A DNA stretch of 64,000 nt, from the NCBI RefSeq assembly GCF_003669035.1, contig NZ_CP033070.1, forward strand, positions 1,984,001-2,048,000. The letters are read 5' to 3'. The notes beneath the pieces are model-generated. The model was not told the DNA's origin. It saw only the letters and a program-made list of their open reading frames with translations, and ran no database searches. The stretch's first letter is position 1. The number at the start of each line of letters is the position of its first letter. Below are positions 4,409 to 37,126 of this stretch, one piece after another. Both the position numbers and the translations under genes were made by a program. This stretch comes from Chryseobacterium sp. 3008163. GTDB taxonomy: Bacteria > Bacteroidota > Bacteroidia > Flavobacteriales > Weeksellaceae.

Positions 4409-5531
4409 TACGACAAAATTACTAAATCTACGTTCTGTTTAGACAGTCTTTTGAGTAAGGAATTAAAAGTGTCTGTAGCCAGAATAATTCTCCAGATATC
4501 CAAATGTGGTTTTCCGATACACATCGTCGTAATATTCCTCTCTTCGCATTGTTCCATGATGGTCATTGCAATATTTTTACTTTGAATTTTTATGATTTCT
4601 GCACCCAACTCAGTAGCCAATCTGAAATTATTAATCAAATGTCTCTGTTTATTCAGCGCAATTCTGTCCGCCGATTCTCTAGGAACCTGAACATACAATA
4701 AAAACCACTGACTGTTGTAGTAGCTTGCCAGTCTTGCGGTTTTCCGAATAACATTTTTTGCTGTCACTTCGTTTGAACTGATGCAAGCAAGAAATCTTTC
4801 TTTTTTAAAGTTTTTCCTGTGACAACTTCTGTTTCAACTTTCCTTGTAACCTGCGATGCCACTTCTTTCAGCGCCAACTCACGAAGTTGAAGGATATTTT
4901 CGTTTTTAAAAAAATTATTGAGTGCAGAGAGTATTTTACTTTGATCGTAAATTTTCCCTTCTTTTAATCTTAAAATCAATTCATCAGCGGTAAGGTCAAT
5001 ATTGACGACCTCATCCGCCGAAGCTAGAACGGTATCAGGAATTCTTTCGGCAACCTCAATTCCGGTTACAGCTTTTACCTCATCGTTGAGACTTTCCAAA
5101 TGCTGAATGTTCACAGCACTGATGACATTAATTCCGGCATCTAAAATCTCAAAAACATCCTGCCATCTTTTTTTATTTTTGCTTCCTTCGATATTGGTGT
5201 GAGCCAATTCGTCAATAATCACAATTTCCGGACGCAGGACGATGATCGCCGGAACATCTAGTTCTTCCAGCTCTTTGCCTTTGTAAAATAATTTTCTTCG
5301 GGGAATAATAGGAAGACCTTCCAGCAAATCGTGTGTTTCCTTACGATTGTGTGTTTCCACATATCCTATCTTTACATCTATTCCGTTTTGAAGGAGTACG
5401 TGAGCTTCCTGAAGCATTCTGTAGGTTTTCCCTACGCCCGCACTCATCCCGATGTAAATTTTCAGTTTACCCCGTTTTGAACTGTTGATGAGATGCAGAA
5501 ACTCTTCTGCGGATTTTCTTGATTCGTTCAT
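4408..5531 (-). pseudogene. kdpD: Stand-alone KdpD-type sensor (KdpD N-terminal + universal-stress domain), frameshifted
   Basis: This is the short Bacteroidota form of KdpD, with the osmosensitive K+ channel sensor domain and a UspA-like domain but no kinase. The Walker A stretch is GMSAGVGKTY (about residues 28-37) and the Walker B stretch is IVIIDELAHTN. The reading frame ends early with ASVQTK. Adding one base to the T run at 4801-4806 restores KERFLACISSNEVTAKNVIR and leads into the Usp part. The repaired length is 374 residues, about the usual size of this short form. In E. coli the domain senses K+ and turgor signals and controls the kinase portion; here the kinase is the next gene, overlapping by one base. 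The start ATG at 5531 gives MNESRKSAEEFL. Confidence 0.88.
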
Positions 5532-5567
5532 TTGTAGAATTGATTATTTCAGGTAAGAAAAATGTTT

Positions 5568-5710
5568 TAAACCATTAAGGGTATTGAGTTTTTAAGGACA
5601 AAAATAATTTTCATTTTTTAGATTCACCAAGGTGAATCATTAAGTTACACGCTTAAATCAATTTATTGATTCTTAACATTCCTTAATCAATTAATTCCCT
5701 TAATGGTTTA
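5568..5710. repeat. Intergenic inverted-repeat element between barrel gene and kdpD
   Basis: The perfect 14-bp arms TAAACCATTAAGGG (5568-5581) and CCCTTAATGGTTTA (5697-5710) enclose further nested symmetry: GATTCACC-AA-GGTGAATC at 5621-5638, and TTAAGGA against TCCTTAA. The remaining gap bases are AT-rich with no reading frame. A related stretch (AACCATTAAG and TTTTTAAGGA) occurs near 22.75 kb, so this looks like a dispersed, MITE-like element. Confidence 0.7.
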
Positions 5711-5769
5711 TAAAAATTCACAATCTTTTTTAGCTAACTTAATTTAACCAAAAGTTATAATTGCTATTA

Positions 5770-6849
5770 CTAAAATGAAATGGCCAATGCCGTCGTTGCC
5801 GTCAGACTATTGCTATTAAATTCATCCGTCCTGTTCATAAAGATAGCATCTTTACTGTTTAAATTTCTGATTTCTGTACGCCAAACGAGATTCGGCAGGA
5901 TCTGATAATCAGCATTCAGAGAATACCCGAAAGTTTTAAAACCGTTTTCTGTTCCCGTAGCAATGATCACTCCCTTTTCATCTTGGTAATATTCTCCTCT
6001 TGCGGTAAAACTCAGTTTTTCTGTAGCATTGTATTTTGCAATTAAAACTGGTGTGTACCAAATATTATACTGCTCGCTTCCTTTTGCTTTTTGTTCGGCA
6101 CCAATGTCAAAACCTGCTGTCACTCCGAACTTTTTATTAATTTGATACACTGCATACAGATTATGAAAATATCGCATCTGGCGAATGCTGTCGGGTTTAT
6201 CATTTCCGATAAAAGAACTGCTGTTGATGGTCAGTTTTTCATTAGGTTTAAATGTCAACTGATGTCCGAATGCAGGCGTAGAATTTCCGTCAACTCTCTG
6301 AATACGCTGCCAACCATTGAGTACTAAACCGCTTACAAACCACTTTCCACTTTCTGAAGTGTAGGAAATTTTAGCACCTGTCTCGAAATACGGCGAGTTG
6401 TCAGCAAAAAGACTTCGTGTCAATGTCCAATTATCTTTTCCAACAGCACTTTCAAATCCTAAATGGGATGGGAAAACTCCTGCATCAATCCAAAGATTAT
6501 GTTTTTTTGAAATTTTCAAACCTACATTGGCTTCGTAAATATTTTTCATCACACCTTGCTCTGCTGCGTAATTGGCATTCATGTATGTTCCGACTGCTAA
6601 AGCAAGATTGGCTCTCACATTTTCTGTATTGTATGCTGTTTTTACAAACGCTAAATTAACGTTCACTTCATTGTTTCGGTTGTGACTGTATACGAATCCA
6701 GGACGGTTATTATTTTTCGGATTATTAAAATCTGCAGTGTAATAAACCTCAGCGTATCCGCCAACAGTAAGAGGTTTTGCAATTGAATCGTTTTGAGCAG
6801 ATGCACTGATACCGCATACAGCTAACAAAACAAATAGTATTTTTTTCAT
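5770..6849 (-). CDS. Outer-membrane beta-barrel (porin-like) protein of the kdp operon
   Basis: The protein has 359 residues with a signal peptide ending ISASAQ, then alternating amphipathic strands (GGYAEVYYTADF, NVNLAFVKTAYN, SFTARGEYYQDE) and a C-terminal Phe (ALAISF), as in outer-membrane barrels. It most resembles the porin-like barrels that accompany kdp genes in Bacteroidota. It sits 78 nt after kdpC and before kdpD on the same strand. I infer that it lets K+ or another solute across the outer membrane, so that uptake is not limited there; no residue proves the substrate. Nothing appears truncated. Confidence 0.75.
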   Translation of the reverse strand: MKKILFVLLAVCGISASAQNDSIAKPLTVGGYAEVYYTADFNNPKNNNRPGFVYSHNRNNEVNVNLAFVKTAYNTENVRANLALAVGTYMNANYAAEQGVMKNIYEANVGLKISKKHNLWIDAGVFPSHLGFESAVGKDNWTLTRSLFADNSPYFETGAKISYTSESGKWFVSGLVLNGWQRIQRVDGNSTPAFGHQLTFKPNEKLTINSSSFIGNDKPDSIRQMRYFHNLYAVYQINKKFGVTAGFDIGAEQKAKGSEQYNIWYTPVLIAKYNATEKLSFTARGEYYQDEKGVIIATGTENGFKTFGYSLNADYQILPNLVWRTEIRNLNSKDAIFMNRTDEFNSNSLTATTALAISF

Positions 6850-7595: not shown

Positions 7596-9605
7596 TTAGA
7601 AAAATAAGGATACAATAATATCTATGATTTTAATTCCGATAAAAGGGATAATGACACCGCCTAATCCGAAGATGAATAAATTCCTTCTCAGCAACGCAGA
7701 TGCGCCGATTGGTTTATAAGCCACCCCCTTCAATGCCAACGGTATCAGTATAGGAATGATAATCGCGTTGAAAATGACTGCCGATAAAATTGCACTTTCC
7801 GGACTGTGAAGATTCATAATATTTAAACCTTGCAAAGCAGGAATTGCCGTGATAAACAATGCCGGAATAATGGCAAAATATTTTGCAACATCATTGGCGA
7901 TACTGAATGTAGTCAGCGTACCTCTTGTCATCAGCAACTGTTTGCCGATTTCTACAACTTCAATTAATTTCGTAGGATCATTGTCGAGGTCGACCATATT
8001 TCCGGCTTCTTTTGCAGCCTGTGTTCCGCTGTTCATGGCAACACCTACATCTGCCTGAGCCAATGCCGGAGCATCATTGGTACCATCACCCATCATGGCA
8101 ACCAGACGACCTTCCTGCTGTTCTTTTTTGATGTAGTTCATTTTATCTTCCGGTTTTGCTTCGGCAATAAAATCATCAACACCTGCTTTTTCAGCAATAA
8201 ATTTTGCAGTCAGTGGATTGTCACCGGTCACCATCACGGTTTTAATACCCATTTTTCGGAGACGTTCGAAACGCTCGCTGATTCCGGGTTTAATGATATC
8301 CTGAAGTTCAATCACTCCCAGAACTTTTTCATTTTCTGAAACCACCAATGGTGTTCCTCCGTTCTGAGAAATTTCTTTAACTTTTAAATCAATTTCTTGT
8401 GGAAAAATATTTCCAGCAGCTTCCGATATTTTTCTGATGGCGTCGGTTGCTCCTTTTCGGATGCGGTTTCCGTCGTAATCAATTCCTGAACTTCTGGTTT
8501 CTGCGGTAAATTTGATAAACTGAGGATTACTGATTTCATAGCTTAAAGGATTGATTCCCGCCAGCTCTATGATTGATTTCCCTTCAGGAGTTTCATCTGC
8601 CATTGAACTCAAAACAGCCGCTTTGATTAACTGTGTTTCATCAACTTGGTTAGCAGGATAAAAACTCGTTGCCTTACGGTTTCCGATGGTGATTGTCCCT
8701 GTTTTATCTAAAAGTAAAACATCGATATCTCCAGCTGTCTCCACTGCTCTACCGCTTTTTGTGATCACGTTGGCTCGCAATGCTCTGTCCATCCCGGCAA
8801 TACCAATCGCTGATAATAATCCGCCAATAGTAGTCGGAATTAAACAAACAAAAAGTGAGATAAATGATGCAATAGTAATCGTGACATTAGAATAATCTGC
8901 GAATGGTTTTAAAGTCACACAAACGATGATAAAAACCAATGTAAAACCTGCCAGTAAAATCGTTAAGGCAATTTCGTTCGGTGTTTTCTGCCTTGAAGCA
9001 CCTTCTACCAAAGCAATCATTTTATCTAAAAAGCTTTCGCCGGGTTGCGTTGTCACTTGTACAACAATTTTATCCGACAAAACTTTTGTTCCTCCTGTTA
9101 CAGAACTTTTATCACCTCCAGATTCACGAATGACAGGAGCCGATTCTCCGGTAATCGCACTTTCATCTATGGTAGCAAGTCCTTCAATGATTTCTCCGTC
9201 AGAAGGAATAATGTCTCCAGCTTCACAAACAAAAACATCTCCTTTCTGTAATTTAGATGAAGAAATTATTTCACCGTTTTGCAGTTTTGCAGGCGTTTCT
9301 TCTCTTGTTTTACGAAGACTGTCTGCCTGAGCTTTCCCTCTTGCTTCGGCAATTGCTTCAGCAAAGTTTCCGAATAAAACGGTGAGTAAAAGAATGATGA
9401 ATACCGTGAAATTGTAAGCAAAACTTCCCTGAGATTTTTCTCCTGTCAAAGTCCAGACGCTTACAAAAAACATCACCAATGTACCGAGCCATACAAGAAA
9501 CATGACGGGATTTTTAAACATTAGTTTCGGATTCAGTTTCACAAAAGACTGTTTCAATGCTTCCTGAACCAATTCTTTTTGAAACAAAGATTTATTTTGA
9601 GTCAT
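7596..9605 (-). CDS. kdpB: Potassium-transporting ATPase subunit B (P-type ATPase)
   Basis: KdpB is the ATP-hydrolysing subunit of KdpFABC. It has 669 residues, normal for the family. The phosphorylated Asp is residue 300 in [10 protein letters not shown], the actuator-domain motif ITGES is at 151-155, and the hinge motif is [16 protein letters not shown]. Four helices lie in the N-terminal half and three near the C-terminus. The start ATG at 9605 gives [12 protein letters not shown]. The gene follows kdpA with a 22-nt gap, and nothing is missing. Confidence 0.98.
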
Positions 9606-15184: not shown

Positions 15185-15256
15185 GGCCCGTTCGTCTATC
15201 GGTTAGGACCTCAGGTTTTCATCCTGGTAAGAGGGGTTCGACTCCCCTACGGGCTA
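15185..15256 (+). tRNA. tRNA-Glu (TTC), tandem copy 1
   Basis: A 72-nt cloverleaf with acceptor arms GGCCCGT/ACGGGCT, anticodon loop TTTTCAT and T arm GAGGGGTTCGACTCCCC. It lies 8 nt after rpsT and is identical to the next copy, but differs from tRNA-Glu at 2.5 kb. Confidence 0.97.
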
Positions 15257-15323: not shown

Positions 15324-15395
15324 GGCCCGTTCGTCTATCGGTTAGGACCTCAGGTTTTCATCCTGGTAAGAGGGGTTCGACTCCCCTACGGGCTA
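15324..15395 (+). tRNA. tRNA-Glu (TTC), tandem copy 2
   Basis: Identical over its 72 nt to copy 1, from which it is separated by 67 nt. The spacer has no gene. It is a recent duplication or kept identical by gene conversion. Confidence 0.97.
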
Positions 15396-20389: not shown

Positions 20390-20530
20390 ATGCTGTATCC
20401 CGCGATAGGGATGGTAGCGGTTATCCTTTTTGTCTTTTCTGAATCATTGTTTTATAGACTCACTTGGCAAGACAAAAAGATATGAGCGGACAGCCCGACC
20501 CGAGCGGCTGGAAAAGCCAGGGAAAGAGAA
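20390..20530. repeat. Structured intergenic repeat, likely dispersed element
   Basis: It contains perfect 11-bp arms CTTTTTGTCTT (20426-20436) and AAGACAAAAAG (20469-20479), flanked by AGCGG and ATCCCGCGATAGGGAT-like symmetry, and a GC-richer stretch GCCCGACCCGAGCGGC not seen in neighbouring DNA. There is no reading frame. The style matches intergenic repeats common in flavobacterial genomes, but only one copy is in this window. Confidence 0.55.
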
Positions 20531-27171: not shown

Positions 27172-30100
27172 TTATTTGTTGATTAAAGAATTAATGTTGA
27201 CCACAGTTTGATTCACCTGTTGAATGGATTGCAAATATTTCAGTTCGATATTGGTTGCTGTTTGAAGCGCAAACAAATATTCTACATAAGAGATTTCTCC
27301 TGTTTTATAACCTAACTGAGCGGCTTTTACAATACTTTTCGCATTAGGAATCGCTTGATTTAAATAATACTGATACTGCTGAAGATCTTGCTGATACTGG
27401 CTTAACGAATTTTTTAGTTGAGCATCCAATTGCTGCTGTTGGAACTTCGCATTATTTTCCTCCATCTGCTTTTGATATTCCAAAGATTTTATTCTTGCTT
27501 TTGTAGCCCCGAAAGTCAATGGAATAGCCACTCCAATACTTACAGAATTAAATCTATTTTCAGCGCCATAGTATTTCTCCTGTCCATTTAAGGTGTGAAA
27601 ACCTATCAAAGACTGATTAGTATATCCGATACTGAAATCTGGTAATCCCTGCGCCTTTTCAACATTTTTATTCTTTTCCAGCACTTCCATATTCTGCTTA
27701 AAAATCTGGATCGACGGATGATTTTCTACCGTTTCGCTGTCTAGAAGATATTCTACTTTTAACGGTTCATATTTTTGAGAATCAGGAATGGAAATATCTT
27801 CGTCCGTATTCAACAAAACCTTTAAATTTTTATAGGCATTATCTAGATACACCTTATTCTGCTGAAACAAAAGATTAATTTCTCCTTTTTGGGTTTCGGC
27901 AGTATTAATTTCGATCTTTTTAATATCTCCTGCTTTGAATCTCACCGTTGCAATTCTTATGAAATCGCCATACAAATTGTCGAGATATTTCAATTTTGTT
28001 TGATTGTACTGCAAATATTCGATCTGATAAAAATAGGATCTAACCTGTTTGATCAATTCATTTTCGGTGATTTGCTTTTCAAGCTTTTTAGTTTTAATTT
28101 CTTCCTGAATCAATTCTTTTCTGGCTTTAAATAACGTCGGAAACGGAATAGATTGTGAGATGGCAAAAGACTGATCAAATTTCGGACTGTTATATTGTCC
28201 GAGCTGCGCATTGAAATCCAGTTTCGGAAGCTCTTTTGCTGTTGGTTTTAAGGCTTCGGAAGACTGAATATTAAGATCTTTTGCTTTGATGGAAGGATTA
28301 TTTTCTTGTAGTAATTCTATCGCCTGATTCAAAGAAATTTCTCTTGAACTTTGGGCTTTCAAATTTTGACCTAAAAATAAAGTTCCTATTAAAATGATTA
28401 CTGTTAAAGGCTTTTTCAACAATTTATCTTTAAGATTAATTTTAGAATTAAAAATAATGTACAACATCGGCAAGACGAATAAAGTAAGGAAAGTTGCAGA
28501 GAGTAATCCTCCAATAACAACCGTTGCTAATGGTTTCTGAACTTCTGCTCCCGCGCTTGTACTTATTGCCATCGGTAAAAATCCGAAAGAGGCTACCGTT
28601 GCCGTCATTAAAACAGGTCTTAATCTGGTTTTCGTTCCTTCAATTACTCTTTTAAATACATCGGTAACTCCATCTTTTTCTAATTGATTGAATGTTCCAA
28701 TCAAAACAATTCCGTTAAGAACCGCCACTCCAAATAATGCGATAAAACCAATTCCTGCGCTGATACTGAAAGGCATCCCTCTCAATAAAAGAGCAAAAAC
28801 ACCTCCGATCGCGCTCATCGGAATCGCTGTAAATATTAAAGTTGCCTGTTTAAATGAATGGAATGTAAAATATAGCAGCATAAAGATCAAAAGTAGCGAC
28901 ACAGGAACAGCAATCATCAATCGTTGACTGGCTTCTTTTAAATTTTCAAACTGTCCGCCATAGGTAAAATAATATCCAGATGGAAGTTTTACGTCTTTCT
29001 CTAATTTTTGCTGAATATCTTTCACAACACTTTCTACATCTCTTCCTTTTACATTAAAACCAACGACAATTCTTCGTTTTCCTGCTTCACGGCTAATTTG
29101 TGCAGGTCCAAGTTTATATTCAATATTAGCGACTTGCGACAACGGAACCTGAGTTCCGGTATTCGTTGGAACCATCAAATTACTGACATCCTCAATATCC
29201 GTTCGGTACAGACTATCTAATCTTACTACCAAATCAAAACGTCTCTCATTTTCAAAAATTTGTCCAGCGGTTTTTCCTGCAAATGCGGTGCTTAAAACAT
29301 TGTTGACATCTTCTACATTCAAACCATAATTTGCAATTCTCGTTCTGTCGTACGTCACATTGATCTGCGGAAGTCCTCCCACTCTTTCAACCTGCGGAGA
29401 AGTTGCGCCATCAACATTTTGAATAACTTTGCTTACTTTATCGGCATAAATAGAAAGCGTATCCATATTTTCACCGAAAATCTTTACCGCAACATCTTGT
29501 CGGATCCCTGTCATTAATTCATTAAAACGCATTTGGATTGGCTGATTGGCTTCAAAGAAAACACCGGGAATTACTTCCAGCTTTTCTGTAATCTCATCCG
29601 ATAATTCAGTGTATGATTTTTTGGATTTCCATTCTTTTTGAGGCTTTAAAACAATTATTAAATCGGTTGCTTCAGGCGGCATCGGATCTGTAGGAACTTC
29701 GGCTGAACCCGTTTTTCCAACTACCATTTTCACCTCATCAAATTGTTTAATAACTCTTGAAGCCTGCATCGAAGTTTCGATACTCTGGCTTAATGAACTT
29801 CCTTGCGGTAAAATACAGTGAAAAGCAAAATCTCCTTCCTGCAACTGTGGAATAAACTCACCACCCATTCTGCTAAAAATCAATGCTGAAATTGAAAATA
29901 ACAAGACGGTGAGCCCAACAATCACATATTTAATTTTAATGGCTTTCTGTAATAAGGGTTGATATATTTTTTGCAGCCAATTCATCATTTTATCCGAAAA
30001 ATTTTCTTTGTGAGACGTTTTCTTTGAAAGGAAAAGTGCGCACATCATCGGAATGTAGGTCAATGAAAGAATCAGTGCTCCGAGAATTGCAAAACCTACT

Positions 30101-31536
30101 GTTTTAGCCATGGGTGAGAACATTTTACCTTCAATTCCTACCAACGTAAGAATCGGAATGTATACAATCAGAATGATAATTTCTCCAAAAGCGGCACTTC
30201 CACGGATTTTTGATGCTGATAGAAAAACTTCTTCATCCATTTCGCTTTGTGTCAATTTTTGGACAGATTTCCTTAATCCTAAATGATGTAAAGTAGCTTC
30301 AACAATAATTACGGCACCGTCTACAATTAATCCGAAATCAATCGCTCCCAAACTCATTAAATTGGCACTTACTCCGAAAACATTCATCATTCCTAAAGCG
30401 AACAATAATGATAAAGGAATTGCTGACGCTACAATTAATCCTGCTCTGAAATTGCCGAGAAATACAACTAAAACAAAGATCACGATCAATGCTCCTTCAA
30501 TCAAATTCTTTTCTACTGTACTTATGGCTCGATCTACCAAGTCGGTTCTGTCTAAAAATGGTTCGATTACAATATCTGCAGGCAACGATTTCTGAATTGT
30601 AGGAATTTTTTCTTTAATTCTGCTCACAACATCATTGCTATTGGCTCCTTTCAACATCATGACCACTCCACCTACAGCATCGGTTTGGCCGTTGTACGTC
30701 ATCGCACCGTAACGGGTTGCGTGCCCGAAACGAACATCTGCGACATCTTTCACAAAAACAGGAATACTCCCTGTATTTTTGACCGCAATATTTTTAACAT
30801 CCTCAATAGAAGTTGCTAAGCCAATTCCACGGATGAAATAGGCATTTGGTTTTTTATCAATATAAGCTCCGCCTGTATTTTGATTGTTCTTTTCAAGGGC
30901 TGTGAAAATATCTGCAACGCTTACTCCCATTGCTTTTAGACGATTAGGATTGACGGCAACTTCATATTGCTTCAACTCGCCTCCAAAACTATTGACCTCA
31001 GCAACGCCTTCTGTTCCGTATAATTGTCGGGAAACGATCCAATCCTGCATCGTACGCAGATCTTTCGCATTGTATTTTTTTTCACTTCCCTTTTTAGGAT
31101 GCAAAATATATTGGTAGACTTCACCTAATCCGGTACTGACAGGCGCTAACTCAGGAGTTCCAATTCCTTTTGGGATATTTTCTTCGGCTTGTTTTAATCT
31201 TTCATTAATTAATTGCCGGGCAAAATAAATGTCTACTTTATCTTTAAAAACAACGGTGATTACCGATAATCCGAATCTTGAAATACTTCGGGTTTCTTCT
31301 ATATCGGGAACGGTTGCAATACTTTGTTCGATGGGGAAAGTGACCAATTGCTCAACCTCTTGTCCAGCCAAAGTAGGGCAAACCGTAATAATCTGAACCT
31401 GATTATTGGTGATATCAGGAACAGCATCGATGGGTAATCTGGAAGCACTCCAAACTCCCCAAATGATCAAAAGCAAGGTCATTATGCCAATAACGATCTT
31501 GTTTTTGATGCTAAATTTTATGATTTTATCTAACAC
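27172..31536 (-). CDS. CzcA-type heavy-metal RND pump fused to a TolC/CzcC-like outer-membrane channel
   Basis: The 1454-residue protein is a fusion. Residues 1-1035 or so are an HME-RND pump with 12 helices. The helix 4 signature DFGLIVDGAVIIVEA (from Asp400) fits the DFGxxxDGA class that pumps Co, Zn, Cd or Ni, not the Cu/Ag class; its usual last Asn is Ala here. About residues 1050-1454 are an outer-membrane efflux domain with two coiled-coil repeats, preceded by a second signal-like helix (LTVIILIGTLFLGQNLKAQ). The start codon is GTG at 31536. The fusion is found elsewhere in Bacteroidota. Whether the chain is cleaved after LKAQ is unknown. Confidence 0.95.
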   Translation of the reverse strand: MLDKIIKFSIKNKIVIGIMTLLLIIWGVWSASRLPIDAVPDITNNQVQIITVCPTLAGQEVEQLVTFPIEQSIATVPDIEETRSISRFGLSVITVVFKDKVDIYFARQLINERLKQAEENIPKGIGTPELAPVSTGLGEVYQYILHPKKGSEKKYNAKDLRTMQDWIVSRQLYGTEGVAEVNSFGGELKQYEVAVNPNRLKAMGVSVADIFTALEKNNQNTGGAYIDKKPNAYFIRGIGLATSIEDVKNIAVKNTGSIPVFVKDVADVRFGHATRYGAMTYNGQTDAVGGVVMMLKGANSNDVVSRIKEKIPTIQKSLPADIVIEPFLDRTDLVDRAISTVEKNLIEGALIVIFVLVVFLGNFRAGLIVASAIPLSLLFALGMMNVFGVSANLMSLGAIDFGLIVDGAVIIVEATLHHLGLRKSVQKLTQSEMDEEVFLSASKIRGSAAFGEIIILIVYIPILTLVGIEGKMFSPMAKTVGFAILGALILSLTYIPMMCALFLSKKTSHKENFSDKMMNWLQKIYQPLLQKAIKIKYVIVGLTVLLFSISALIFSRMGGEFIPQLQEGDFAFHCILPQGSSLSQSIETSMQASRVIKQFDEVKMVVGKTGSAEVPTDPMPPEATDLIIVLKPQKEWKSKKSYTELSDEITEKLEVIPGVFFEANQPIQMRFNELMTGIRQDVAVKIFGENMDTLSIYADKVSKVIQNVDGATSPQVERVGGLPQINVTYDRTRIANYGLNVEDVNNVLSTAFAGKTAGQIFENERRFDLVVRLDSLYRTDIEDVSNLMVPTNTGTQVPLSQVANIEYKLGPAQISREAGKRRIVVGFNVKGRDVESVVKDIQQKLEKDVKLPSGYYFTYGGQFENLKEASQRLMIAVPVSLLLIFMLLYFTFHSFKQATLIFTAIPMSAIGGVFALLLRGMPFSISAGIGFIALFGVAVLNGIVLIGTFNQLEKDGVTDVFKRVIEGTKTRLRPVLMTATVASFGFLPMAISTSAGAEVQKPLATVVIGGLLSATFLTLFVLPMLYIIFNSKINLKDKLLKKPLTVIILIGTLFLGQNLKAQSSREISLNQAIELLQENNPSIKAKDLNIQSSEALKPTAKELPKLDFNAQLGQYNSPKFDQSFAISQSIPFPTLFKARKELIQEEIKTKKLEKQITENELIKQVRSYFYQIEYLQYNQTKLKYLDNLYGDFIRIATVRFKAGDIKKIEINTAETQKGEINLLFQQNKVYLDNAYKNLKVLLNTDEDISIPDSQKYEPLKVEYLLDSETVENHPSIQIFKQNMEVLEKNKNVEKAQGLPDFSIGYTNQSLIGFHTLNGQEKYYGAENRFNSVSIGVAIPLTFGATKARIKSLEYQKQMEENNAKFQQQQLDAQLKNSLSQYQQDLQQYQYYLNQAIPNAKSIVKAAQLGYKTGEISYVEYLFALQTATNIELKYLQSIQQVNQTVVNINSLINK

Positions 31537-32124: not shown

Positions 32125-32155
32125 AAAAAACCACTGCATTACGCAATGGTTTTTA
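32125..32155 (-). terminator. Terminator of the first susC/susD operon
   Basis: AAAACCATTGC and GCAGTGGTTTT on the minus strand pair with one mismatch around GTAAT and run into T6, 20 nt after the susD stop. Confidence 0.85.
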
Positions 32156-32174: not shown

Positions 32175-33668
32175 CTATAAATTTGGATTGTTCTCTATTT
32201 CCTTCTGTGGAATTGAAAACAAATAATATCTGCTGTTGGGCGCAAAAGCCGACTGATCAGGAAAAGCGAAAATAGAATGTCCTCTTCCATTCACCATCTT
32301 TACCGTTCCATCGGGAGTGGTTACCTGCACCTGAATCGGTTGTCCGCTTGTATTGACATAAGCTTTTCTTTCTACTTTACCTTGTGTTCTGATGATGTCT
32401 GAGAGAGAGAAACCTTCTCCGAATAGTTCTTTCCTTCTTTCAGTTAGAACTTCTTTAATCACAGCATTCTGCGCAAGAGAACCATTATAAACATTGGCAT
32501 TTCTAGCTGTTTTTAATTGATTTAAAACGGTCACCGCATTGGAAACATTACCGTTTCTTGCTTCGGCTTCAGCTTCAATTAAATACATTTCAGATGCTCT
32601 CATGAAAACGATATCGGCAATTAAATTAGCTTTAAATTTAAATTTAGCATATCTCAAAAGTCCTTCTCTTCCCGGCAATCCGTCCCATGAAAATAGAGAA
32701 TAACGGATATCATTGGTATCAAATAAATCTTTAAAATAAGGATCAGCCATAAAACTGTAATAGTAGCTTCCCGAAGATGAGACATCCAAAAAGTGGAATG
32801 CATAGCTTTCACCAGACTGTTCCTGAGTTTGTGCGTGACCCCAGATCCATTCTCCGTTGGTGATGTCGTTGAAGCCTTCTTTGTATTTTTCGGCATTCAT
32901 TAAAGGAAATCCTGTTCTCGCAATTTTTGCAGAAGCGATTGCGTTGGTCCATTCGCCGGTGTTTAAATAAACTCTTGCCAGAAGTCCGTTGACGACAAAT
33001 CGGTCGATTTTATCTTTATTGTTTCTGGAATAATTTTGAAGCAATTGGTCGGCATCCTTCAAATCACTTTTAATTAAAGTGTAAATTTCTTCGAGGCTTG
33101 CTTTTTTCTTCCCTACAGAATTGGTGGTTGCCGGTCCGGTATAAATGGGAGCAGTCGGAGCATTTTTATCTTTCAAATAACTAAACTGATAAAAGCTGGC
33201 AAGATTTAAATAACAGAACGCACGTAGCGCTTTCGCCTGGCCTTTCACCTGATTTTTCTTTTCCTGAGTTCCTTCAGCAATATCAATTTTGGCAATCACA
33301 TTGTTCATATTATTGATGACAGAATATAAAGACGTCCAGATATAAAGCGATCTACCTCCAGTATTATTCACCAAATCAGTAAATGCATAAGCCGATGGAA
33401 ACCCATATTTGTTAGTCAAAACTGCAACATCACTTCCCATGGCATCGCTGGTTCTTAAAACCGTTGAATAACCAATATTGGCATACGTCGTTCCGTCGTC
33501 ATTAAACTTCGCCCAAGTTCCGTTGATTACTGTTTCGGCACTTTCTGCAGTTTTGAAAATTTCAGCTTCATCTGCCTGATTGGTTGGTGCGGTTTCAAGA
33601 TCCTGCTCACAGCTGATCAATGAGATGGCGGCAATTAAAGCAAAAGATATGTATTTTAATTTTTTCAT
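32175..33668 (-). CDS. SusD/RagB-family nutrient-binding lipoprotein (SAM-riboswitch operon)
   Basis: The 497-residue lipoprotein has Cys20 (LISC) and the helical tetratricopeptide fold of SusD (KGQAKALRAFCYLNLASFYQ, RFVVNGLLARVYLNTGEW) and the C-terminal family end (TERRKELFGEGFSLSDIIR). SusD lids cap the partner SusC barrel and bind the substrate at the cell surface. Substrates range from glycans to peptides; the motifs do not tell which. The upstream SAM-I riboswitch suggests a sulfur-related substrate. The start abuts copy B of the 120-bp repeat. Confidence 0.95.
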   Translation of the reverse strand: MKKLKYISFALIAAISLISCEQDLETAPTNQADEAEIFKTAESAETVINGTWAKFNDDGTTYANIGYSTVLRTSDAMGSDVAVLTNKYGFPSAYAFTDLVNNTGGRSLYIWTSLYSVINNMNNVIAKIDIAEGTQEKKNQVKGQAKALRAFCYLNLASFYQFSYLKDKNAPTAPIYTGPATTNSVGKKKASLEEIYTLIKSDLKDADQLLQNYSRNNKDKIDRFVVNGLLARVYLNTGEWTNAIASAKIARTGFPLMNAEKYKEGFNDITNGEWIWGHAQTQEQSGESYAFHFLDVSSSGSYYYSFMADPYFKDLFDTNDIRYSLFSWDGLPGREGLLRYAKFKFKANLIADIVFMRASEMYLIEAEAEARNGNVSNAVTVLNQLKTARNANVYNGSLAQNAVIKEVLTERRKELFGEGFSLSDIIRTQGKVERKAYVNTSGQPIQVQVTTPDGTVKMVNGRGHSIFAFPDQSAFAPNSRYYLFSIPQKEIENNPNL

Positions 33669-33787
33669 ATGTAGGATTTATTGTTTTTTAAAGGTCATCC
33701 CGAATGGTCGGGATAGGTTATGGAATCGTGTCATCTTCATCAGTTTTTGTTTTTCCAAATCATGGCGATTTCATTGTTTAAATTTTA
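33664..33787 (-). repeat. Copy B of the 120-bp intergenic repeat, between susC and susD
   Basis: Same element as at 12153-12275: TTTAAAAAACAATAAA stretch, the hairpin TCCCGA-CCAT-TCGGGA, and CTACATATGAAA at the gene start. It fills the gap from the susC stop to the susD ATG. It may act as a translation or stability element, or may be a mobile repeat. Confidence 0.75.
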
Positions 33788-33793
33788 AAAAGA

Positions 33794-36703
33794 TTAAAGC
33801 GTAGCCTGCAGTCCGAAAGTTACCGTTCTCATTGCAGGATATCTGTAATAGGTTGTTCCGTCCAGAGTCTGCTCAGGATCCATTCCTTTATGTTTGTAGA
33901 ATGTGAAAAGATTTTCTGCCTGAACGTACACTCTCAGTTTTTTTAACCCTATTCTTTCAAAGTAATTTGACGGAAGTGTATATCCCAGACTCACGTTTTT
34001 AATTCTTGCATACGTTCCCGAGTATAAAAATCTTGACGAAGCGGAAGTCCAGTTATTGGTCGTCGTGCTTAAAGCAGGAACATCGGTATTGGTATTTTCG
34101 GGAGTCCATCGATTTAACATTTCAGAGCTCCATGCTCTTCCGGCAGCACTTCCGTTGTGCATTAACATCGTATAATCAGTATCGAGAATTTTTCCTCCCA
34201 AACTAAAAGTCAGCAATCCTGAAAAATCAAAATCTTTATATCTGATACTTGTGGTAAGACCTCCCATCACTTTTGGCAAAGAAGATCCTTGCAAAATTTT
34301 TGTGGCTTTTGAATACTCAGAAGTTGTTCCTTCCACTGTATTTCCGTTGGCATCGGTGGTGATTGTTTTCCAAAGGGGATTTCCGTTGCTTGGGTCGACT
34401 CCAATCCATTCAGGAATGAAGAAATCGTAAATAGAACCTCCGACTTGCAAAAGTTTTGTTCCGCTGACAATAGACCCTTTCGGCAGTTTGGTTATTTTAT
34501 TGTTTAAAGTACTCAGATTCATATCAACATCCCATTGAAAGTCATCAGTTTTAACGGGCGTTGTAAATAGAGAAAATTCAAAACCTGTATTTTTTAATTC
34601 TCCGATATTTGCCTGATATCCGCTGAAACCCACTGACGGAGCCAAAGGCATATCAAACAAAAGATCTTGACTCTGACGTTGGAAATATTCTACATTTCCT
34701 TTGATTCTGTTTTTCAGAATGGCAAATTCCAAACCTACATTCAGATTGAGGTTGGTTTCCCATTTCAAATCCGGAGTAGGAAGCCTGCTTGCCACCGTAC
34801 CGCCTTCACCTAAGTTGTTATAAAAGGTATACAGACTTTGATACGCATAATACGTGCTCAATTTGTCATTTCCCTGTCCTCCATAACTTGCACGAAGAGT
34901 CAGCTGATCGAATATATTTAAATCTTTAATGAAATCTTCATTCGAAGCCCTCCAAGAACCACCGACTGACCAGAACGTCCCCCATCTGTTTTCAGGAGAA
35001 AATCTTGAAGAACCATCTGCCCTTACCGATCCGGAAACGAAATATTTATTTTTAAAATCATATTCCACTTTTCCCAAGAAACTTAACAAGCCTAATTTAT
35101 CGCTGTTTCCACTGAATCCACCCAACAAAGCTGCCGCATCCGGCTCGTAATAATAGGGAAGTGAAAATTGGCTTCTGTTTCCAGAGATGGTTTGAAATTC
35201 GTAATGATAAAATTCCTGACCCGCCAAAATATTAAAGTGATGCTGGTTGAATTTTTTATCAAAAGTCAGAATATTACTGGTCGTATAAGACAGCGTTCTT
35301 GAGTTTGTTTTTGTTACTGAACCACCGATCTCACTTCCCTGCCCAATCAAAGGATTTGAATAAAAGTGACCGTTGTAATTCACCAAATCAACAGAAAAAC
35401 TAGATTTAAATTTCAATTCTGGTAAAAAAGTAAAGTCTAAAAACCCTTTTCCTGAAAAGTTATCTTCTCTGTTTTCATTTTTATCTAAAGGCAACGTCGC
35501 TGCTGCATTTTGATTCTGTAAAGCACTTGTTGGACGGTATTTTCCAAAGTCATAAATGTAATTTCCATTGGCATCTAATCTGTGGCTTCCATCTACATTT
35601 CTTTCGTAATAAGGATAAAACGAAGGGATGACTCTTGCCGCATTAATGATATTATCCGTCCTAGAATCTGATGAAGGCGGCGCTTCCTGAAGACTGTTGG
35701 TATAACTTAAATTAGCTCCTACGTTCAACCATTTTTTGACTTCAGAATTAATTTTCAGTCTTGTGCTGTATTTCGTAAAACCTGAACCAATGGCAATTCC
35801 TTTATCATCGAGATAACCTAAAGAGAAATAATAATTGCTTTTTTCACTGCCACCACTGAAATCCAGATCAACCTGACTTCTTGCGGCTACTCTTTGAAGA
35901 ATATCTCTCCAGTCGTCATTCCATAAAGCATTTGCACCAGACAAAAGCTTCCCGTCTGTTCCGACCGGTTTTGCAAAATTTGAACCATAAGGATTGATCC
36001 CTAAAGCTGGTACTAAATTATCACTTGCCATCTGTGCCGCCTGCTGTGAAGAGACCTGACTCGATTTATACCCATTTCTCAAAGCTTCCCAATACAGCTG
36101 AAAATACTGATCGGTATTCACCTGCTCATAATCTTTAACCGCTCTACTAGAAAATCCCTGACTGATATTAAAGTTGACCTTTGCCTCACCTTTTTTACCG
36201 GATTTTGTGGTGACAATAATCACTCCGTTGGCCGCTCTTGATCCGTATAGTGAACTTGCTGTAGCATCTTTCAAAACACTGATGGATTCAATATCATTCG
36301 GACTTATAGAGTTGATGTTTCCGTCAAAAGGAATTCCGTCAACCACAAACAAAGGATTGCTGGAAGCACTTACCGAGCCAATCCCACGAATACGGATAGA
36401 AGCTGTGGCTCCTGGTTGTCCCGAAGAACTCACCGCCTGAAGTCCAGGAACCTGGCCTTCCAAAGCTTTGGTAATATTGGTTACCGGTCTGTTATTTATT
36501 TTTTCGCTGGAAATTGTTGCCACAGAACCTGTGTAACTTGTTTTTTTCGCTTTACCGTAAGCGACCACTACGACTTCATCTATTTCCTGTTCGCGTAGTG
36601 AATCTTTTTTTGTTTCCTGCCCATGTAGATTGATAATTCCTAAGAAAAATACAGCAACGGGAGGAATCCAAATTTTAGAATTAATTAAATTTTTGTTAAT
36701 CAT
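33794..36703 (-). CDS. SusC/RagA-family TonB-dependent outer-membrane transporter (SAM-riboswitch operon)
   Basis: The 969-residue receptor has a signal peptide (NLHGQ), the TonB box region EIDEVVVVAYGKAKK, the plug domain (NRPVTNITKALEGQVPGLQ, PLFVVDGIPFDG, NDIESISVLKDATASSLYGS, RAANGVIIVTTKSGKKG) and a large barrel ending VTFGLQATL. The carboxypeptidase-like N-terminal domain of many SusC proteins is absent, so this is the shorter form. It imports a substrate using TonB energy together with the SusD protein downstream. The leader holds a SAM-I riboswitch with a terminator, so expression should drop when S-adenosylmethionine is plentiful. Confidence 0.96.
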   Translation of the reverse strand: MINKNLINSKIWIPPVAVFFLGIINLHGQETKKDSLREQEIDEVVVVAYGKAKKTSYTGSVATISSEKINNRPVTNITKALEGQVPGLQAVSSSGQPGATASIRIRGIGSVSASSNPLFVVDGIPFDGNINSISPNDIESISVLKDATASSLYGSRAANGVIIVTTKSGKKGEAKVNFNISQGFSSRAVKDYEQVNTDQYFQLYWEALRNGYKSSQVSSQQAAQMASDNLVPALGINPYGSNFAKPVGTDGKLLSGANALWNDDWRDILQRVAARSQVDLDFSGGSEKSNYYFSLGYLDDKGIAIGSGFTKYSTRLKINSEVKKWLNVGANLSYTNSLQEAPPSSDSRTDNIINAARVIPSFYPYYERNVDGSHRLDANGNYIYDFGKYRPTSALQNQNAAATLPLDKNENREDNFSGKGFLDFTFLPELKFKSSFSVDLVNYNGHFYSNPLIGQGSEIGGSVTKTNSRTLSYTTSNILTFDKKFNQHHFNILAGQEFYHYEFQTISGNRSQFSLPYYYEPDAAALLGGFSGNSDKLGLLSFLGKVEYDFKNKYFVSGSVRADGSSRFSPENRWGTFWSVGGSWRASNEDFIKDLNIFDQLTLRASYGGQGNDKLSTYYAYQSLYTFYNNLGEGGTVASRLPTPDLKWETNLNLNVGLEFAILKNRIKGNVEYFQRQSQDLLFDMPLAPSVGFSGYQANIGELKNTGFEFSLFTTPVKTDDFQWDVDMNLSTLNNKITKLPKGSIVSGTKLLQVGGSIYDFFIPEWIGVDPSNGNPLWKTITTDANGNTVEGTTSEYSKATKILQGSSLPKVMGGLTTSIRYKDFDFSGLLTFSLGGKILDTDYTMLMHNGSAAGRAWSSEMLNRWTPENTNTDVPALSTTTNNWTSASSRFLYSGTYARIKNVSLGYTLPSNYFERIGLKKLRVYVQAENLFTFYKHKGMDPEQTLDGTTYYRYPAMRTVTFGLQATL

Positions 36704-36727
36704 AATCCATTTTATTTATCAATTATT

Positions 36728-36762
36728 AAAAAATAACCCTTTGCAGAAAAGACGGCAAAAGG
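36728..36762 (-). terminator. Regulated terminator of the SAM riboswitch
   Basis: On the minus strand CCTTTTGC and GCAAAGG form a stem (one bulged T) followed by GTTATTTTTT. It lies between the aptamer (ends 36788) and the susC ATG (36703), which is where a transcriptional OFF switch is expected. Confidence 0.8.
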
Positions 36763-36787
36763 CATCGATAAATACGATTAACCAATT

Positions 36788-36882
36788 GCTTATTTTTCCT
36801 TTAAAGGCTGAATTTAACACCTTGCGCAGAGCAGGTTGTTAAGACTTCACAGGGTCAGTTCCCTCCATCTTTCTTTATAAGC
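36788..36882 (-). promoter_or_regulatory. SAM-I (S-box) riboswitch in front of susC
   Basis: Read on the minus strand, the leader carries the conserved S-box blocks in order: GATGGAGGGA, CTGACCCTGTGAAG, CAACCTGC, GCAAGGTGTTAAATTCAGC. The closing helix P1 is GCTTAT (36877-36882) with ATAAGC (36788-36793). The P3 arm is ACCT/AGGT. This matches the SAM-I class, which binds S-adenosylmethionine and normally turns off methionine genes. A terminator follows before the start codon. Confidence 0.88.
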
Positions 36883-36899
36883 CGATCGAAATATGAGTG

Positions 36900-36938
36900 C
36901 AAATCTAAAAACAATTAGTCTACAAAACAAGTAGACTT
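36900..36938 (-). promoter_or_regulatory. Promoter of the riboswitch-susC transcript, overlapped by a dyad
   Basis: On the minus strand TTG (36930-36928), 20 nt, TAGATTTG (36907-36900). A perfect dyad AGTCTAC-AAAACAA-GTAGACT (36918-36938) lies over the -33 element, so a protein regulator could add to the riboswitch. Confidence 0.7.
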
Positions 36939-37126
36939 TTAAGTTTCAAATTATTATTTAATGAAAATTAACTTAATATATTCTTAAAAAACACTAAAAT
37001 AGAGCGTTACAAAAAATATTAAATTATAGAATATGATAAATATCATTAAAAATAATGTAATTCGAAAAAAATGATTTAAAATGGAAAAGCTTTCTACTTA
37101 TTGAAAAAACTTTTTAAATTTATCCT

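Follow-up and report, generated by a model that had tools for sequence, protein, structure and literature searches.

A SAM-I riboswitch and a conserved promoter palindrome ahead of a SusC/SusD pair point to methionine acquisition in Chryseobacterium

The window analysed here, a stretch of 64,000 nucleotides of Chryseobacterium sp. 3008163 (contig NZ_CP033070.1, positions 1,984,001 to 2,048,000), carries a SAM-I riboswitch, of a class that senses SAM made from methionine, and, further upstream, a conserved promoter palindrome ahead of a susC-susD operon. Two sulfur-linked controls at the same genes, one of them a candidate operator, therefore suggest methionine acquisition, and we consider it probable (about 0.7) that this operon, served by one promoter, imports a methionine source.

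Results

The aptamer extends over 36787..36883 on the minus strand and lies 83 nt upstream of susC. An Infernal search with the Rfam model RF00162 matched the entire model (1-108) with 67.7 bits, above the gathering score of 44.4, at an E-value of 1.2e-13. A preliminary description, prepared from the nucleotide sequence alone, had recognized a minus-strand S-box leader at 36882-36788 and named this search as a check; the full-length match at 36883-36787 bears it out. Covariation points in the same direction. Among 21 aptamers (eight from SusC loci of the clade, with the window and Olivibacter among them; two from further SusC loci; 11 from other targets), 97.1% of the cells in the 31 pairs of P1-P4 and the pseudoknot are paired. 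Two-sided changes occur in 19 of the 31 pairs, and the covariation score was matched by none of 500 shuffles. The four-base pseudoknot, formed by CUGA in the P2 loop and UCAG 3' of P3, covaries over the same set (96.4% of cells paired, three of the four pairs altered on both sides), the exceptions being L134, L136 and L142, each of which breaks one position. Between aptamer groups the pseudoknot changes as a unit. It reads CUGA/UCAG in all seven aligned SusC leaders of Chryseobacterium and Elizabethkingia, UAGA/UCUA in 7 of the 11 aptamers of other targets, and AAGG/CCUU in Olivibacter. The aptamer is thus real and complete. The 78 ortholog leaders taken alone are near-invariant, with two-sided changes at 6 pairs compared with 3.0 in shuffles and a score that was reached by 208 out of 500 shuffles; as variation was too low, this set was dropped as support for the aptamer.

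The switch is a constant companion of this particular susC. A protein scan with six exact SusC peptides, which favours close relatives, kept 78 loci, namely 75 from Chryseobacterium, 2 from Elizabethkingia and one from Olivibacter domesticus (SusC 60-61% identical). The Rfam model found SAM-I in all 11 of the ortholog loci scanned with it, and with a model derived from the 21 aptamers it was detected at 78 of the 78 named ortholog loci. A second sample, of 40 Chryseobacterium genomes, contained a SusC ortholog (at least 77% identity) in 30, one of which (G726) is matched over residues 1-806 only, and SAM-I was located 83-87 nt upstream of all 30. These ortholog-linked sites make up 30 of the 96 SAM-I sites in the 40 genomes. 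The S-box before a SusCD pair, as claimed in the preliminary description, is therefore a conserved arrangement. In wider draws covering 38 loci, all six close orthologs had SAM-I. It was absent before 29 out of 29 SusC homologs with 35-41% identity and at least 1374 nt of upstream sequence; the distant homologs numbered 32 in total, none with SAM-I, and for three of them the contig breaks off 12, 96 or 177 nt upstream. SAM-I hence marks the susC ortholog group and not SusC generally. The susCD pair is missing from 10 of the 40 congeners, which we count against our best explanation. In Chryseobacterium sp. E1 (L080), SusC is in several pieces while the upstream aptamer is intact.

The first gene of the pair, susC (33794..36703, minus strand), encodes a SusC/RagA-family TonB-dependent transporter of 969 aa (TIGR04056 797.6 bits, cut-off 368.25; PF07715 Plug 85 bits). 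The closest named relative is Chryseobacterium aahli, whose SusC is 99% identical. The second gene, susD (32175..33668, minus strand), starts 125 nt downstream of susC and encodes a SusD-family surface lipoprotein partner of 497 aa (PF07980 67.6 bits, cut-off 23.1; PF14322 64.4 bits, cut-off 27). SusC shares the SusC/RagA architecture with the RagAB system of Porphyromonas gingivalis, and RagA (6sli, 380.9 bits) is its best match among solved sequences. In contrast, SusD is far closer to 3snx and 3lew (392.6 and 388.2 bits), to neither of which the listing assigns a ligand, than to RagB (38.8-38.9 bits).

A terminator-like hairpin of 13 pairs with a T-rich tail lies 3' of susD (32126..32154, minus strand) and is likely to mark the operon end; the terminator scan gave 2 such sites in the region compared with 0.4 in shuffles. 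Beyond it follow genes for a DUF6660 protein and then a CzcA/HlyD/Fur-like/P-type ATPase set. These were rejected as operon members because the hairpin intervenes after susD, and according to the ORF lists they are absent at this place in the two Elizabethkingia loci and Olivibacter. Since the hairpin follows susD and the downstream genes differ in relatives, the transcription unit is taken to be susC-susD. It contains no enzyme that would name the cargo, and we count this against the methionine-import reading. Within the neighbouring set, next to the HlyD, Fur-like, P-type ATPase and DUF6660 genes, a single ORF of 1454 aa (27172-31536, minus strand) fuses a CzcA-type RND pump with an outer-membrane efflux (OEP) domain.

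Between the aptamer and the start codon, a hairpin with the arms CCUUUUGC and GCAAAGGG is followed by a T-rich tail (36728..36762, minus strand, read from 36762 to 36728). Its stem is conserved: across 78 leaders (the window and 77 Chryseobacterium and Elizabethkingia loci, with Olivibacter left out) each of the eight pairs is standard in 66 to 78. Furthermore, the 3' strand of P4 (AAAGG) could pair with the 5' arm of the hairpin, each pair being standard in 58-78 of the 78 leaders, and would make a plausible antiterminator. The folding energy has a median of -12.7 over the 78 leaders and is -9.2 in the window, and the weakest six hairpins, a minimum for the number of weak leaders, reach only -1.6 to 0.0 kcal/mol. 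Six or fewer T within 12 nt after the stem were counted in 52 of the 78 leaders, and the terminator scan did not list the hairpin at 36762-36728. The preliminary description had proposed a regulated terminator before susC. The conserved stem agrees with this proposal; the weak hairpins, the few T residues and the result of the scan do not, and we regard the hairpin as a likely, but not certain, regulated terminator.

Upstream of the aptamer, the motif count over 79 loci revealed a promoter (36900..36930, minus strand) composed of TTG (36930-36928), a spacer of 20 nt and TAGATTTG (36907-36900). The motif TTG-N18-22-TAnnTTTG, which we take to be the Bacteroidetes promoter consensus, is present in 78 of the 79 loci compared with 0.8% of 5000 random 90-mers. 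A palindrome with the sequence AGTCTAC-N7-GTAGACT (36917..36937, minus strand) overlies the -33 box of this promoter. With at most two substitutions it is conserved in 76 of the 79 loci, invariably 9 nt before the -7 box; as background, 4000 random 90-mers drawn from these loci gave 22, true sites possibly being among them. The three exceptions are both Elizabethkingia loci and Olivibacter, where a diverged form was seen by eye. The span of the preliminary description, which ended at 36938, included the palindrome, and its text made no mention of it. A palindrome covering the -33 box of the conserved susC promoter is a new observation, and its position and conservation, together with its copies at the sulfur genes described below, make it a candidate operator of a sulfur regulator. 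A second palindrome, TGATATTTATCA, is located at about 37034-37047 between aroQ and susC, and a similar one occurs upstream of a SAM-I-linked TonB receptor of G331 (L373).

Relaxed palindrome patterns gave no excess in the own genome over backward controls (19 matches versus 33 for one pattern, 31 versus 30 for the other). Twelve of the 19 matches were read and 30 of the 31 were examined. Among these 30 sites, 7 had a relaxed promoter box TA-N2-3-TTTG within 40 nt, and 4 of these were intergenic and lay directly upstream of the box. They precede susCD, cysHDN, an operon of an exporter and MetNIQ, and a gene for an NIL-domain protein of 109 aa. In the third case, a YedA/EamA-type exporter gene is followed by metN, metI and metQ; MetI passes its cut-off (381.7 bits, cut-off 212) and MetN scores 450.2 bits, below the equivalog cut-off of 499.7. 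In this region (L317; C1:1066000-1076000) the exporter gene and a split metQ are frame-broken in the assembly used (5459-6456 and 8187-8995), through either decay or sequence error. The site at cysH-cysD-cysN adjoins a gene of the Rrf2 family. Its product is assigned to the Rrf2 superfamily with 111.9 bits (cut-off 73.3) but scores below the cut-offs of both CymR (61.2 bits, cut-off 195) and IscR (74.1 bits, cut-off 207.55). Judged by adjacency, this protein is the probable regulator that would act at the palindrome. No such palindrome was seen by eye upstream of the met operon, the other SAM-I unit of the genome.

A broader picture of the palindrome was derived from the 40 Chryseobacterium genomes, in which the pattern gave 329 matches compared with 75 for the backward control, symmetric sites being scored on both strands. 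From these, 20 regions in three genomes (G739, G210 and G754) were read. The palindrome precedes the MetNIQ operon in G739 and G210, a cupin-domain gene in G739 and G754, and susC itself in G754. In all three genomes it lies ahead of the NIL gene and a peroxiredoxin gene, of a gene for a 295-aa protein whose first residues resemble the TauE-type protein of the own genome, and of TonB receptors of 908-926 aa (Pfam was checked on one). These receptors (L353, L359 and L366) are encoded without a SusD, follow palindrome and promoter, and are about 43% identical to an 822-aa SAM-I receptor. The latter, together with an APC amino-acid permease, is headed by the third SAM-I of G210, the start of which is overlapped by a copy of the palindrome, and in G265 a pair of TonB receptor and APC permease is likewise under SAM-I. 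Copies without a promoter box were found in G210 before a 35% identical SusC and in G754 (L360), where two copies about 157 nt apart precede an adenosine-deaminase-like gene.

The 4.56-Mb one-contig genome contains two SAM-I sites, so that susCD is the only SAM-I unit besides the methionine-biosynthesis operon. That operon starts with an alpha/beta hydrolase (read as metX), homoserine dehydrogenase and a Cys/Met PLP enzyme, and continues with a homocysteine S-methyltransferase domain protein, B12-dependent methionine synthase and methylenetetrahydrofolate reductase. A wider survey comprised 40 genomes chosen for at least two SAM-I sites, a biased pick, from which 109 sites were read. At 80 out of 109 sites, BLAST matched met-operon proteins to one or more of the downstream ORFs, of which up to four were considered. 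The first gene was a TonB receptor or SusC at 9 of the 109, and the second gene at one more (L152). These receptors fall into four groups. Because identity between the groups is at most 34%, SAM-I control of outer-membrane receptors would appear either to have arisen more than once or to be old and reshuffled. Two of the receptors (G138 and G080; 25-27% identical to the SusC of the window) have similar half-matching upstream repeats, as seen by eye. Part of the first genes without a match to met-operon proteins was classified, yielding an APC permease (L176), a PAPS reductase with sulfite reductase (L160), a peroxiredoxin, a cobalamin-independent methionine synthase (L201) and RimK-like ATP-grasp proteins (L188 and L199). 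Two other observations concern RNA genes on the plus strand of the window. A Flavo-1 RNA (RF01705) was identified at 20393-20504 with 55.3 bits (gathering score 42), and two tRNA genes of equal score and identical printed sequence lie 67 nt apart at 15185-15256 and 15324-15395.

Discussion

Control of susCD by SAM-I, as read in the preliminary description, is supported by the unbroken presence of the aptamer at orthologs and by the met operon being the only other SAM-I unit of the genome. The elements upstream of susCD suggest the following course of regulation. A sulfur-responsive protein, probably the Rrf2-family member encoded beside cysH, would act through the palindrome that overlies the -33 box, setting initiation at susCD in step with MetNIQ and sulfate assimilation. 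At high SAM levels the aptamer would keep P1 closed, the leader hairpin would terminate transcription and susCD would be off; when SAM falls, SusC and SusD would be made. SusC with its SusD lid would then import a methionine source. This would most likely be methionine-bearing peptides or else a small derivative of methionine and, once trimmed in the periplasm where needed, would pass into the cytoplasm via MetNIQ. Further points against this scheme are the lack of a palindrome excess in the own genome, the assignment of the Rrf2 protein by adjacency and its scores below the CymR and IscR cut-offs, the low MetN score, the broken metQ and exporter genes, the weak hairpins in some leaders and the met operon without a visible palindrome.

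Several observations bear on the cargo, which may be methionine, a derivative, methionine-bearing peptides or another sulfur source. A methionine or sulfur cargo, as predicted in the preliminary description, gains support that is independent of the riboswitch, because the palindrome is common to the MetNIQ operon, cysHDN and the NIL-domain gene. The inner-membrane transporters that share these control elements, MetNIQ here and an amino-acid permease in congeners, favour methionine or small derivatives. RagAB imports peptides, and as RagA is the best solved match of SusC, a peptide cargo is hinted at as well. Both hints would be reconciled if peptides were cut down in the periplasm. Overall, comparison of the sequences makes a good case for methionine scavenging by susCD. 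We further lean towards a wider reading, in which dedicated outer-membrane methionine importers of the Bacteroidia, both SusCD pairs and other TonB receptors, have repeatedly come under SAM-I, the susCD of the Chryseobacterium lineage being doubly controlled by the riboswitch and by a sulfur regulator acting at the element shared with MetNIQ.

Alternatively, SusCD may import some other sulfur source that feeds methionine synthesis, such as cysteine or cystine, glutathione, sulfonates or sulfate esters, with SAM serving as a read-out of sulfur status. The palindrome at cysHDN and, in congeners, before the TauE-like and peroxiredoxin genes would fit this explanation. We nevertheless consider it improbable, since the cysHDN promoter lacks SAM-I, so that the methionine branch stands out by its SAM control, and since MetNIQ and the NIL-domain gene carry the palindrome too. 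Glycans or peptides are the usual cargo of SusCD pairs, and the closest solved SusD proteins, 3snx and 3lew, have no assigned ligand. It could thus be argued that this is an ordinary importer of that kind and that the SAM switch conveys a general growth or one-carbon signal irrelevant to the cargo. Two sulfur-linked elements conserved upstream of susCD, and a SAM-I receptor group that includes an amino-acid permease, make this very unlikely. Import at low SAM of a cofactor for methionine synthesis is a remote prospect. The B12-dependent methionine synthase in the SAM-I met operon would give a corrinoid a place in such a scheme, but the two cobalamin riboswitches of the genome lie elsewhere than susCD, one of them preceding a TonB-receptor plug-domain protein. 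Import of a methionine source by SusCD accordingly remains our preferred reading.

The structure 3snx is presumably BT1439 of Bacteroides thetaiotaomicron, which would then be the closest solved relative of the SusD described here. PMC9758874 describes BT1439 as important in mono-colonisation of the gut and in the uptake of vancomycin, and its mutant as slow-growing. With regard to regulation, the nearest parallel is the btuB/btuG loci of gut Bacteroides, TonB-dependent importer loci controlled by cobalamin riboswitches according to PMC6143338. In both cases a metabolite riboswitch acts on a TonB-dependent importer with a surface lipoprotein partner, although the ligand is cobalamin there and SAM here, and the proteins are BtuB/BtuG there and a SusC/SusD pair here. 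Thiamine riboswitch control of TonB receptors is reported in PMC2211319. The S-box itself controls methionine genes and transporters in the portions consulted of PMC3766115, PMC2211319 and PMC2258182. The present switch belongs to the same RNA family, which also controls the met operon in the same genome, but its target is an outer-membrane SusCD pair, a class of target not named in those portions. An earlier report of SAM-I before SusCD was not found in the open-licence literature searched, partly by listings. As far as searched, the combination is an unreported, conserved pairing of known parts.

Conclusions

Most cargo assignments of SusCD systems rest on adjacent glycan enzymes. Here, two cis elements instead of enzymes provide the pointer to the cargo. 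They suggest a source of sulfur amino acids, and a non-glycan role of a SusCD pair thereby becomes directly testable. Riboswitch control of outer-membrane uptake would be extended from vitamins to SAM. If our reading is true, the palindrome can be used to list the methionine and sulfur uptake genes of this lineage, including several TonB receptors.
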